Shown: positions 22,761 through 38,021 of the stretch, piece after piece
Position numbering within the stretch: the stretch's first letter is position 1
Layout: each line of letters starts with the position of its first letter
The notes under the pieces: generated by a model
Databases searched by the model: none
The model's input: only the letters and a program-made list of their open reading frames with translations
Told to the model about the DNA's origin: nothing
Position numbers and translations under genes: made by a program
From: an uncultured Clostridia bacterium
Lineage (GTDB): Bacteria > Bacillota > Clostridia > Christensenellales > Borkfalkiaceae
Reading direction: 5' to 3'
NCBI GenBank assembly: GCA_947624215.1
Contig: CANQJJ010000001.1
Location: forward strand, 40,895-104,894
Length of the DNA: 64,000 nt

Positions 22761-22785
22761 AAAACGTTATTTTGCACTTTTGCAG

Positions 22786-22808
22786 AGTAGTATGTGTGAC
22801 ATACTACT
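22786..22808. repeat. Perfect 23-bp palindrome AGTAGTATGT-GTG-ACATACTACT
   Basis: 10-bp arms, 3-nt spacer; core shared with sites near 28877 and 37971. Confidence 0.8.
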
Positions 22809-26483: not shown

Positions 26484-28811
26484 TTAATCCTTCTTGGGTC
26501 TGGTCAATAGGTAATAGCACAGACCGAAGACAACGATGCCGAAGAAGAAGATGACGGGAACAATGACGTAAGTCGCGAGTGCGCTCGGATCGGTGAAATC
26601 AATGTTCACGCCAAGGGCCACAATGAGCGTCACAATCACGGTGAGCGTATAGGCGACGACTGCATTGATGAGGATGGGCGCCTTTCTGCGGATGGAACGT
26701 TCCCCGTAGCGGTTTGCATAGGCGAGTCCCGTCACGAGCAGGAGCGCGACCCCTGCACACCAGATGAAGTAGGGGTAGAACGTGGGCAGTCCGTATTGTG
26801 CCTGCATTCCGAAGGCCACCGCGCCCTCGACGACGCAGATACAGAACACGACGATCGCACTCAGGAAGAGCGCTTTCCCCTTGTGGACGATGCTGAACGA
26901 TTCCTCGTTTGCTTTCTGTGCCGTCTTGCCGCCCGCAGTCGTGATGCGGATGCCATCGTGTGCCGCCTGCGTTTGGATGTCGTCGAAGTGGATGCCCGAG
27001 AGTTCCTGTGCCTGCGTTTCGGCGGCGGGCTCGGACGGCCGGCTGTCGGCAGTCCCTTCATAGATCCCCGAAATGATCTTGCGGTAATCCTCGTCGGATT
27101 GCACGGAAGGAGAGGAGGAGGGATCGCCCGTATCGGGGGCGGGAGGGGTGTAATGCGAGAAACCGTCGGGGGCCTGCGGTTGCGGCTGTGCGGGCCCGCT
27201 CACGAGATCCAGATAGTTTTGGTGGATGAGCTGTTGCTGTCTCTCGTCGAAGACGGCCTGCTGTTCTTTGATGATCGCCTCGCGCTGTGCATTCAGCTCT
27301 GCTGCATGCTCGGCCCGTTCGGAGACGATCTGCTCTTCCCGCTGGCGGATGACGTCTGTAAGACGCACCGTCTCATTGCGGTAGTAGGCCTCCGTCTGGC
27401 GAAGCTGTTGCTCTTGCGTTCTGAGCCCGTCCTCCTGTTCGCGGAGTTGGCGTTCCCGCTCTTGCAGGGTCTGTTCCATCGTGCGGATCTGCTCGTCCCG
27501 TGCCTGCAAGGTCTCCTCGATCTCCTTGGTACGGCGGATATTCTCCCGGCTTTCCGCTTCGGCCTCCTGCCGTCTGTTTTCGTAGCTGTCTTCAAAGTCG
27601 CGGCGGCGCTCTTCGAGCTCTTCGTCGAGGATACGCCGTCTCTCCGCCTCTTCGTCGTCAAGGATGCGGCGGCGCTCTGCCTCCTCGTCCTCCAGCGCTC
27701 TGCGGCGTTCGGCCTCTTCAGCCTCATAGGCGCGCTTACGGTCGTTTTCCTCTTCCTCTGCGGCCTTGCGGCGCTCCTCGAGCTCCTCGTCGAGGAGACG
27801 GCGGCGTTCGGATTCTTCGGCGTCCATTGCTTCGCGGCGGGATGCCTCCTCGTCGGCAAGAGCTTCCTTGCGGGAGGTCTCCTCCTCGTCGAGAATACGG
27901 CGTCGCTCGTTTTCCTCCTGCTCGATTGCCTGTTTGCGGGAGGCCTCTTCCTCTTCGAAGAGACGGACGCGTTCGTCGAATTCAGCCTCTTCGGCTGCAG
28001 ACGCCGCATCCTCCGCCTCCTGCTGTTGCAGGTAGAGAAGATGTTCGCTGTGCGTCGCCTCGAGCTGTTTTTCCCGTTCGTCAAGCGCGCGCTCCCGCTC
28101 GGCGAGTTCGTGTTCCCGCCAACCGCGTTCGGTGAGATAGGCGGCGCTCCTCGCGCGCATCTCCTCCTCGAAGCGCTGTTTCTCTTCCTCGAAAGCCTGC
28201 CGTTCCTTGGCCATCTCGGTTGCGCGGTCCTCATATTCCGCCTCGATACGCTCCCGCTCGGCGCTGTCGTCGAAAGAGGGCTCGTAGTCGAGCTCTTCAT
28301 CGTCTTCGCCGCGTGCGGTCACGCGGGAGGTCGAACTCCTCAGAACGCGCATATCCACGGCGGTGGGGGCGGGGTTGCTGAAATCGAACACGCGATCTGA
28401 GATCAGCGAGTCGATGACCGTTCTCGAATATTCCCACTCGGTGAGATTTTGCTCGGCGATCTCCTTGCCGAGCTCGGTGAGGGAGAAATATTTTCTTCTG
28501 CCGCCTCCGACAGAACCTCCCCAATAAGACGAAATATACCCGTCCTTTTCGAGGCGCTTCAAGGCACTGTAAAGAGAGGGCTGTTTCATGCTGTACTGCC
28601 CATGGCTCTTCCGCTCGATCTCTGCGATGATGGCGTATCCGTATTTGTCGCCGTCGTAGAGCGCGCGGAGGATGATGGTATTGATATGGCCGCGGATGAG
28701 GTCGGAGGAAATGGACTTTTCTTCTTTCGTTTCCTTGTCCTTTCCCTCGGTCGCCTCGTTCTCCGGCTCTTCCTTCCCGCTTTCTTCGTCGGGAGTGAAT
28801 TCGTCGTCCAT
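26484..28811 (-). CDS. PadR-type winged-helix protein fused to a long hendecad-repeat helix and C-terminal 4-TM domain (putative membrane-tethered DNA-binding protein)
   Basis: PadR-like IRGHINTIILRALYDGDKYGYAIIAEIERKSHGQYSMKQPSLYSALKRLEKDGYISSYWGGSVGGGRRKYFSLTELGKEI; ~400 aa charged helix; TMs LFLSAIVVFCICVVEGAVAF, YFIWCAGVALLLVTGLAY, LINAVVAYTLTVIVTLIVALG, VIVPVIFFFGIVVFGLCYYLL; AGGAGG RBS. Confidence 0.88.
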   Translation of the reverse strand: MDDEFTPDEESGKEEPENEATEGKDKETKEEKSISSDLIRGHINTIILRALYDGDKYGYAIIAEIERKSHGQYSMKQPSLYSALKRLEKDGYISSYWGGSVGGGRRKYFSLTELGKEIAEQNLTEWEYSRTVIDSLISDRVFDFSNPAPTAVDMRVLRSSTSRVTARGEDDEELDYEPSFDDSAERERIEAEYEDRATEMAKERQAFEEEKQRFEEEMRARSAAYLTERGWREHELAERERALDEREKQLEATHSEHLLYLQQQEAEDAASAAEEAEFDERVRLFEEEEASRKQAIEQEENERRRILDEEETSRKEALADEEASRREAMDAEESERRRLLDEELEERRKAAEEEENDRKRAYEAEEAERRRALEDEEAERRRILDDEEAERRRILDEELEERRRDFEDSYENRRQEAEAESRENIRRTKEIEETLQARDEQIRTMEQTLQERERQLREQEDGLRTQEQQLRQTEAYYRNETVRLTDVIRQREEQIVSERAEHAAELNAQREAIIKEQQAVFDERQQQLIHQNYLDLVSGPAQPQPQAPDGFSHYTPPAPDTGDPSSSPSVQSDEDYRKIISGIYEGTADSRPSEPAAETQAQELSGIHFDDIQTQAAHDGIRITTAGGKTAQKANEESFSIVHKGKALFLSAIVVFCICVVEGAVAFGMQAQYGLPTFYPYFIWCAGVALLLVTGLAYANRYGERSIRRKAPILINAVVAYTLTVIVTLIVALGVNIDFTDPSALATYVIVPVIFFFGIVVFGLCYYLLTRPKKD
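27531..27959 (-). repeat. About 13 tandem 33-bp (11-residue) coding repeats, consensus xDEEEAERRRx
   Basis: FEEEEASRKQA/IEQEENERRRI/LDEEETSRKEA/LADEEASRREA/MDAEESERRRL/LDEELEERRKA/AEEEENDRKRA/YEAEEAERRRA/LEDEEAERRRI/LDDEEAERRRI/LDEELEERRRD/FEDSYENRRQE/AEAESRENIRR. Confidence 0.9.
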
Positions 28812-28835
28812 GCGTTTCCTCCTGTTATTTACATT

Positions 28836-28864
28836 ATTATACACGATTTGGCAGCATTTGTCAA
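28836..28864 (-). promoter_or_regulatory. Promoter of the PadR-TM gene
   Basis: Minus strand TTGACA-17-TATAAT, perfect consensus. Confidence 0.9.
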
Positions 28865-28876
28865 GAGTTGCGAAGT

Positions 28877-28893
28877 ATTATGTGTGACATAAT
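28877..28893. promoter_or_regulatory. Palindrome ATTATGT-GTG-ACATAAT upstream of the PadR-TM promoter
   Basis: 7-bp perfect arms; same core as 22786 and 37971. Confidence 0.65.
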
Positions 28894-28951
28894 TGCAAAT
28901 TTTTTTAGAAAAAAATACATTTTTTTAGCGGATACGGCATAGATAGAGAGC

Positions 28952-30019
28952 ATGAAGAGCTTGCGGGGGACGGCGATCGTCATCGGCGGAACGATCGGGG
29001 CGGGTTTCATTTCGGGAGCGGAACTCGTCCGCTTTTTTCATACACGCTCCTTTCTCGTCCCCGTTCTCGTCTCATCGCTTCTCTTCGTGCTCTTTTCCGC
29101 CCTGCTCCTCTCGGTGGGGAGACGCCACGGAGGATACGACGCGGCCATGCGGGCACTCTTCAAGCGGGGGGCGCCCTTTTTGGAGTGGACGATCGCGCTT
29201 GCGTCCCTCGTGCCGTGCGCGGGAATGCTTGCGGGGCTTGACGCGCTGCTTCCCGCTTGCCGTCCTCTCCTCTCCCTCACAGGGCTCGGGTTATCCTACC
29301 TTGTCCTCCGCCGCGGAACGCGCGGGATCTCGGCCGTCAATTTTCTGCTTGTCCCCGTTTTGCTCTGTTTTGTATTTTGGAGCGGCAGGGGAGAGAAGGC
29401 GTTTTTCTATCCCGTGGGCGGAGGGGATGGCTGGGGCGGGGCCGTTCTGTATGCCTCTTTGAATGCGTTTTTGCTCCTCCCCGTACTGCTCGACGCGGGG
29501 GCGGACGTGCCGCATCCCTTTCTCGCCTCGGCGCTTGCGGGGGTACTCATCGCGGCGGGTGCGGCGACCATCCTCGGCTGTATCTACCGTGAGGGCGCAG
29601 GGGCGCTCGGTGCGGAGATGCCGTTTTTGTATGTCATGCGCGGCAAGAAAGTCTTTTCGGCCGCCGTTGCGCTCGCGATCTTCACTTCTCTTGCGGCGTC
29701 GCTCTTCCCGCTGTTGCAGACCGTCAGGGATGTTCCCGGCAAAAAAAAGTACGCCGCAGAGGGCGGTGTGCTCCTTGCGGCGTTTTTATTTTCACGGCTC
29801 GGACTTACGGACATCGTGACATATCTCTATCCGGCCGAGGGGGTGTTGGGGCTTGTATTGGTCTCACTCTGTGTTCTTAACGAGTATTTTTTCGAGAAGA
29901 ACAACAAGAAAGTACATCCCGGCGGCGAGCAGGCACAGGATCGCGGTGGCGCTCATGACGAGGTCGAGTTTGAACACCTGTCCGCCGTAAACGATGAGGT
30001 AGCCAAGCCCCGCCTTTGA
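28952..30019 (+). CDS. YkvI-like multi-TM membrane protein
   Basis: GTAIVIGGTIGAGFISGAELVRFF and about 10 hydrophobic helices; last ~45 residues overlap the opposite-strand permease. Confidence 0.7.
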   Translation: MKSLRGTAIVIGGTIGAGFISGAELVRFFHTRSFLVPVLVSSLLFVLFSALLLSVGRRHGGYDAAMRALFKRGAPFLEWTIALASLVPCAGMLAGLDALLPACRPLLSLTGLGLSYLVLRRGTRGISAVNFLLVPVLLCFVFWSGRGEKAFFYPVGGGDGWGGAVLYASLNAFLLLPVLLDAGADVPHPFLASALAGVLIAAGAATILGCIYREGAGALGAEMPFLYVMRGKKVFSAAVALAIFTSLAASLFPLLQTVRDVPGKKKYAAEGGVLLAAFLFSRLGLTDIVTYLYPAEGVLGLVLVSLCVLNEYFFEKNNKKVHPGGEQAQDRGGAHDEVEFEHLSAVNDEVAKPRL

Positions 30020-37952: not shown

Positions 37953-37970
37953 GTTCATTTTACGATGTAT

Positions 37971-38005
37971 TATGTCAGACATACTTGCAATTTATGTCAC
38001 GCATA
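37971..38005. repeat. Two tandem copies of TATGT-N3-[AG]CATA
   Basis: TATGTCAGACATA (37971-37983) and TATGTCACGCATA (37993-38005) between two terminators. Confidence 0.6.
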
Positions 38006-38021
38006 GTATTTCGATCCCGAC

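Follow-up and report, generated by a model that had tools for sequence, protein, structure and literature searches.

The window analysed here is a stretch of 64,000 nucleotides, and on its minus strand lies an open reading frame of 775 amino acids with a PadR-type head and a tail that is predicted to enter the membrane. The preliminary description of this DNA had taken the reading frame to be real, with a perfect promoter and a ribosome binding site, and both signals are in place. The gene and its parts are as follows.

26484..28811, minus strand: open reading frame of 775 amino acids, membrane-anchored PadR protein (transmembrane insertion predicted), with ATG at 28811 and its end at 26484
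28395..28712, minus strand: PadR/LmrR-type winged-helix head, residues 34-139, with the recognition helix around KQPSLYSALKRLE and the wing GGSVGGGRRKYF (Pfam and PDB matches, model, cross-genus conservation)
27201..28265, minus strand: charged hendecad helix, residues 183-537, of variable length among relatives (periodicity, model)
26922..27200, minus strand: Pro/Gln-rich linker, residues 538-630, mostly disordered, with short conserved pre-membrane motifs
26502..26921, minus strand: four predicted transmembrane helices, residues 631-770 (hydropathy, model, four in 45/45 homologues)
28818..28823, minus strand: ribosome binding site AGGAGG
28836..28864, minus strand: promoter TTGACA-N17-TATAAT, conserved in relatives

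In a Pfam scan of the protein, PF03551 (PadR) covers residues 47-118 (E=4e-18; 65.5 bits against a curated cut-off of 27), and the best PDB relatives of the head are PadR/LmrR chains, matched over residues 33-139 at E~1e-23. PadR was the sole name returned by the Pfam scan, which gave no match of HAAS type, to the RTP model or to MatP. The 11-residue periodicity of the middle is genuine, with charge autocorrelations of 0.37, 0.29 and 0.36 at lags of 11, 22 and 33 residues. AlphaFold2 renders residues 183-537 as a single helix of 355 amino acids, about 53 nm long if straight, followed by a disordered linker (residues 538-608) and four C-terminal helices (residues 631-673, 678-701, 711-734 and 742-770); this was a monomer run on a shallow alignment (mean pLDDT 63, pTM 0.24), and only its secondary structure was used. 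Hydropathy likewise yields four transmembrane segments. The layout first proposed for the protein, an N-terminal PadR-like winged helix, a long charged hendecad helix, a linker rich in Pro and Gln and, at the C terminus, four hydrophobic segments, is therefore borne out in this genome. The positive-inside pattern of the loops predicts that both ends of the chain are cytoplasmic. A fold search with the transmembrane module, whose models are of modest confidence, returned nothing from the PDB at E <= 0.001, the best E being about 1.

Because a homologue is found in 128 of the 151 genomes sampled from the family, the reading frame is not a product of chance; the fraction is 95 of 104 among good genomes, and 14 of 18 genera are represented. 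Named relatives with a homologue include Candidatus Gallimonas merdigallinarum and Clostridia MAGs, and in its own genome the gene is single copy. All 45 homologues that we examined, from 14 genera, combine the head with exactly four predicted C-terminal transmembrane helices. None of the outcomes that the preliminary description had named as refuting it was observed: in no homologue do head and tail lie in separate genes, every homologue has predicted transmembrane helices, and the head keeps its recognition helix and wing across genera. The comparison does not support the emphasis of that description on the long hendecad helix as the essential feature, as in several other genera the segment between head and tail is either short or disordered and rich in Pro and Glu. 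From the head region to the first transmembrane helix there are 85-635 residues across the 45 homologues, often non-helical; the hendecad helix is a trait of the source genus, and the middles in genera g8 and g5 are rich in Pro, Glu and Ala. Since the middle varies among genera, the constant parts are the head, the short pre-membrane motifs and the four-helix anchor. Beyond the family, head searches found that numerous further families of the order carry long PadR-headed reading frames (430-1000 amino acids); f31 and f4 are among the families in which all PadR reading frames are short. A profile search with the transmembrane module outside the family gave only two weak matches.

At almost every locus the gene is on its own, next to a divergent neighbour. 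Going by names assigned from reading the sequences, that neighbour is a YkvI-like membrane gene in the source genus, an acyl-ACP thioesterase in genera g3, g5, g8, g10 and g11, and a tyrosine recombinase in g2, g6, g7, g13, g14 and g16. As the neighbours differ between genera, no fixed target operon can be inferred. In the window, the YkvI-like membrane protein gene occupies 28952-30019 on the plus strand, and it is a neighbour in the source genus only.

In most relatives, the gene's own promoter carries a conserved site of about 20 bp, TTATGTCnnACATAnTACTT. It consists of an inverted repeat plus an asymmetric tail (TTATGTC-nn-ACATA-n-TACTT), is strongly conserved in the upstream regions, and lies just upstream of the -35 element in the source genus and several other genera. 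In genus g3 (L037, L038), two tandem sites lie between promoter and ribosome binding site, a position suited to autorepression. Neither the strand of the reading frame nor the palindrome at 28873-28894, directly upstream of -35, had been noted in the preliminary description. Copies of the site in the window include the following.

28873..28894, minus strand: AATTATGTCACACATAATACTT, copy of the terminus site within the promoter of the PadR gene itself, likely autoregulatory
22785..22804, minus strand: terminus site, a nearly perfect extended palindrome, AGTAGTATGTGTGACATACTACT
37965..37984, minus strand: terminus site in the convergent spacer after an adhE-like gene
37992..38011, plus strand: another terminus site in that convergent spacer

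Each genome holds about 10-25 copies of the site, confined to roughly 300 kb around the replication terminus. Allowing up to three mismatches, we counted 35 matches in the source genome against 4 for the reversed control, and all 35 fall on 6 of its 87 contigs (about 306 of 1978 kb), including the one that carries the PadR gene. A close version of the pattern matches 8 times in the 64-kb window, against 0.4 expected. Six other genomes of the source genus are similar; G027 and G042 are less clean. A weight matrix built from promoter sites only gave 28, 19 and 20 matches above 10 bits in G105 C1, G055 C2 and G149 C1, against 0, 0 and 1-3, respectively, in the shuffled-sequence control. MAG contigs may contain joins, although these are an unlikely cause of the pattern because it is seen in at least seven assemblies. 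We also considered a mobile or repeated element as the source of the motif and rejected it, the flanks in G105 being unrelated (mean identity 0.30, maximum 0.46).

One reading of such sites is that the protein is a membrane-integrated one-component regulator in the manner of CadC or ToxR, with the transmembrane module sensing a membrane signal and the head controlling a regulon through the sites. In its favour, repression is the usual role of PadR proteins, a site adjoins the gene's own promoter, and membrane-integrated regulators are known (PMC7888679, PMC6320335). The placement of the sites argues otherwise. The 97 sites that we classified comprise 32 that are intragenic, 14 in convergent spacers, 46 in tandem spacers and 5 in divergent ones, which puts 46 of the 97 (47%) within genes or between convergent ones; scaled to intergenic length, sites are over-represented in convergent spacers (22% vs 12%) and under-represented in divergent ones (8% vs 22%), these classes being approximate because the gene calls come from a simple codon model. 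We reject a promoter-only regulon in view of this context. A regulon would, moreover, leave both the confinement to the terminus and the polarity described below unexplained, and we regard a one-component regulator as very unlikely. The preliminary description had left two options, a membrane-linked transcription sensor and a chromosome-membrane anchor; the first is disfavoured, and the second is strongly supported by the distribution of the sites.

The intragenic sites are conserved in orthologues and impose a common peptide on unrelated proteins: S-T-T/M-S/T-D-II in SpoIIIAE (STTSDII in G105 and in the source genome), STTSDII in a DXS-like transketolase, and LSTMSDII or LSIMSDII in MiaA. These genes (SpoIIIAE, DXS-like transketolase, MiaA), with orthologues in G105 and G055, are found in the source genome at the following places.

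C11, 5557-6630 and 10596-12299 (L149)
C2, 29559-30461 (L145)

Several observations identify the region that holds the sites as the terminus. The dnaA gene is on contigs without site clusters, and GC skew goes from positive to negative within the site-clustered contigs, with cumulative maxima at 224,295 in G105 C1, 138,102 in G055 C2, 263,582 in G149 C1 and 592,040 in G064 C1; an origin-linked region of the parS or ram kind is ruled out by the same two observations. The classical B. subtilis dif sequence had no convincing match. A search for intergenic words shared near the skew flip returned a 32-bp inverted repeat, ACTATTCGCAAAA-N6-TTTTACGAATAGT, which is present in G105, G055, C11 of the source genome and G135, and with one mismatch in G042; versions in G064 (4 mismatches) and G149 (5) lie 0.3 and 0.5 kb from the skew maxima. 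Beside the repeat is a gene for a tyrosine recombinase that, among NCBIfam models, matches XerS best, at a score below the cut-off of that model. In streptococci, XerS has been described as genetically linked to its own dif (PMC2731167). Since the repeat lies near the skew flip and, as in streptococci, beside an XerS-like gene, we infer that it is dif, and repeat and gene together seem to be the family's dimer-resolution system, unlike the B. subtilis dif in sequence. The skew flip, the location of dnaA elsewhere and the dif-like repeat beside the XerS-like gene thus agree on the terminus. Repeat and XerS-like gene are found together at these loci.

G105 C1, 219,232-220,457 (L125-L126)
Source genome C11, 27,546-29,187 (L150)
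L041
L052

With the dif-like repeat as the axis, the strand of the site fits the chromosome arm in 63 of the 71 sites of unambiguous orientation (p=1e-11 on the assumption of independent sites, which holds only in part for orthologous sites of related genomes), and 8 are wrongly oriented. Agreement is without exception in G055 (12 sites), G135 C3 (9), G042 (5) and C11 of the source genome (6), and with local GC skew alone as the reference it is 62 of 75. The tail of the site points away from dif, and intragenic sites follow the orientation of their arm regardless of the strand of the gene. In genera g6, g7, g13, g16 and g17 a distance of 170-440 bp separates the start of the PadR gene from the dif-like site, and where the contig reaches far enough the recombinase gene follows beyond that site. 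This placement ties the gene to the terminus without any reliance on the motif.

Polar sites, oppositely oriented on the two arms and clustered at the terminus, might also be expected of a replication fork trap like RTP/Ter or Tus/Ter that halts forks leaving the terminus, with the membrane anchor secondary. RTP is a winged-helix dimer, and the head of the present protein is a winged helix as well. The role could be vacant, as a search of 61 family genomes found no RTP homologue, with a positive control in B. subtilis. The core of the site, however, is nearly palindromic, and fully so in some copies; the 8 wrongly oriented sites among 71 fit a fork trap poorly; and a trap has no need for a conserved four-helix anchor. 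We therefore consider a fork trap unlikely.

That the PadR head binds these sites is suggested by the persistence of the promoter site, by the joint absence of gene and sites, and by the loss of the site where the recognition helix has changed. The promoter site is kept across several genera, whatever the neighbouring gene. Genera without the gene (g9, g4) and the families with short PadR proteins only (f31, f4) have 0-2 site matches, near the control; most site-bearing genera have 6-23. In g7, g13 and g16 the motif is at background, and the recognition helix reads NQATLYS or KQGTFYS, not KQP[ST]LYS. Genus g14 counts against the main reading, as its helix reads KQATLYS and the promoter site is nevertheless kept, and G044 (g11) is an exception in having the gene and one site match only, at 2 mismatches. 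In the AT-rich genera g7, g16 and g13 and the families f3, f6 and f24, with their diverged heads, no motif was found with this pattern, and the promoters hold weak look-alikes. Family f32, in which the searched heads are 64-71% identical, has the exact core in nine of ten genomes. In one f32 genome, G306, the exact core TATGTCnGACATA occurs 18 times (on C1, C2, C4, C8, C9, C11, C15 and C25), more often than in any other genome searched for it, and on C9 a copy is about 120 bp upstream of the PadR gene.

The sites could instead belong to another factor, such as an FtsK/SpoIIIE translocase, with the PadR gene merely nearby and regulated by that factor. The gene does sit in the terminus region, where there is a site every 10-20 kb or so, and binding by the PadR head is itself something that we infer. 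The polarity also resembles that of KOPS, the polar motifs that guide translocases. At a density of one per 10-20 kb, however, a site would not be expected to recur at one and the same place in this promoter in almost every genome that has sites, nor does another binder account well for gene and sites going missing together or for the site being gone where the recognition helix changes. KOPS-type motifs are genome-wide, and the terminus sites are not. This explanation appears to us quite unlikely.

Our preferred reading, to which we assign a probability of about 0.74 on sequence evidence, is that the 775-amino-acid protein organises the replication-terminus region while anchored in the membrane. 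Its PadR-type head, as a dimer, would bind the 10-25 or so copies of the polar site, each of about 20 bp, over some 300 kb around dif, and a linker of variable length (here a hendecad helix of about 50 nm) and the predicted four-helix anchor would hold the terminus DNA at the cytoplasmic membrane. MatP and ZapT offer the analogy: many sites over such a distance, together with a long or flexible linker, would fit the multivalent tethering of a chromosome domain. By the same analogy, the tether would most likely keep the terminus, with dif and the XerS-like recombinase, near the membrane or the division site late in the cell cycle. Through the site in its own promoter, the protein likely controls its own synthesis too. 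A simple tether does not explain the polarity of the sites, for which a fork-trap or translocase-related role is possible.

To our knowledge, proteins dedicated to organising the terminus are firmly documented in some Proteobacteria only (MatP, ZapT). The open question of how other bacteria hold the DNA that is replicated last close to where they divide becomes testable here, as sequence is enough to name the site, the protein, the axis (dif) and the predicted membrane anchor in gut bacteria of the Bacillota. If our reading is true, a common small repressor fold has been turned into a structural chromosome-membrane tether, with polar terminus sites under a selection that is visible in the proteins of the genes containing them. 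Among open-licence papers we found no PadR protein with such a membrane anchor or with a link to chromosome segregation, and no description of such a terminus tether. Site-specific terminus organisers as such are already known; what would be new is a non-homologous protein, predicted to be integral to the membrane, with polar sites. We think it reasonably probable, with less assurance than for the organiser itself, that an integral-membrane PadR tether of the terminus, unrelated to known ones, with polar sites that flip at dif and a freely varying linker, exists here and perhaps, in some form, in many families of one order of Clostridia. If binding were proven, "new system" would be a fair name.

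The nearest parallel is MatP, which acts on 23 matS sites in 800 kb of the E. coli Ter macrodomain (PMC3330122) and contacts lipid membranes (PMC6538776). Like MatP, the PadR protein would be a dedicated DNA-binding protein with tens of short, near-palindromic sites over a terminus domain. MatP, however, is a tripartite RHH protein that makes peripheral lipid contact and works with ZapB; the PadR protein has no MatP homology (Pfam gives PadR only, and no sequence relation was found), its four-helix anchor is predicted to be integral, and its sites are polar about dif. ZapT of Caulobacter, whose ChIP sites are terminus-biased and mostly within ORFs (PMC7188993), resembles it in being a member of a transcription factor family, MerR rather than PadR, turned to the terminus; ZapT differs in having no reported consensus motif, in acting via ZapA/ZauP and in being without a membrane domain (PMC7188993). 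RTP/Ter and Tus/Ter share the polar sites around the terminus, oppositely oriented on the two arms, but not the membrane anchor, the nearly palindromic core or the larger number of sites. RacA acts on the origin region, whereas the present sites are at the terminus. RacA of B. subtilis binds repeated centromere-like ram sites and forms a DNA-membrane tether (PMC6593407), and RocS of Streptococcus pneumoniae joins an HTH, a coiled coil and a membrane helix (PMC11500499). Both share with the PadR protein the plan of an N-terminal winged HTH, a coiled coil and membrane attachment, although their winged HTH is of MerR type and they attach by an amphipathic helix (RocS) or DivIVA (RacA) in place of four predicted transmembrane helices. 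The LmrR/PadR repressors and the HAAS-PadR pair (PMC11237479) have the same winged HTH fold and, likely, autoregulation in common with the present protein, and the HAAS-PadR pair also couples a PadR protein to the membrane. The repressors are soluble dimers of about 110 amino acids, however, and the HAAS system couples PadR to a separate membrane protein (PMC11237479), whereas here head and predicted anchor are in one chain, the neighbours vary between genera and the sites mark the terminus. CadC and ToxR also carry a DNA-binding head and a membrane anchor on one chain (PMC7888679, PMC6320335); they belong to another winged HTH family and have one transmembrane helix and few operators, where the PadR protein has four predicted helices and a terminus-wide array.
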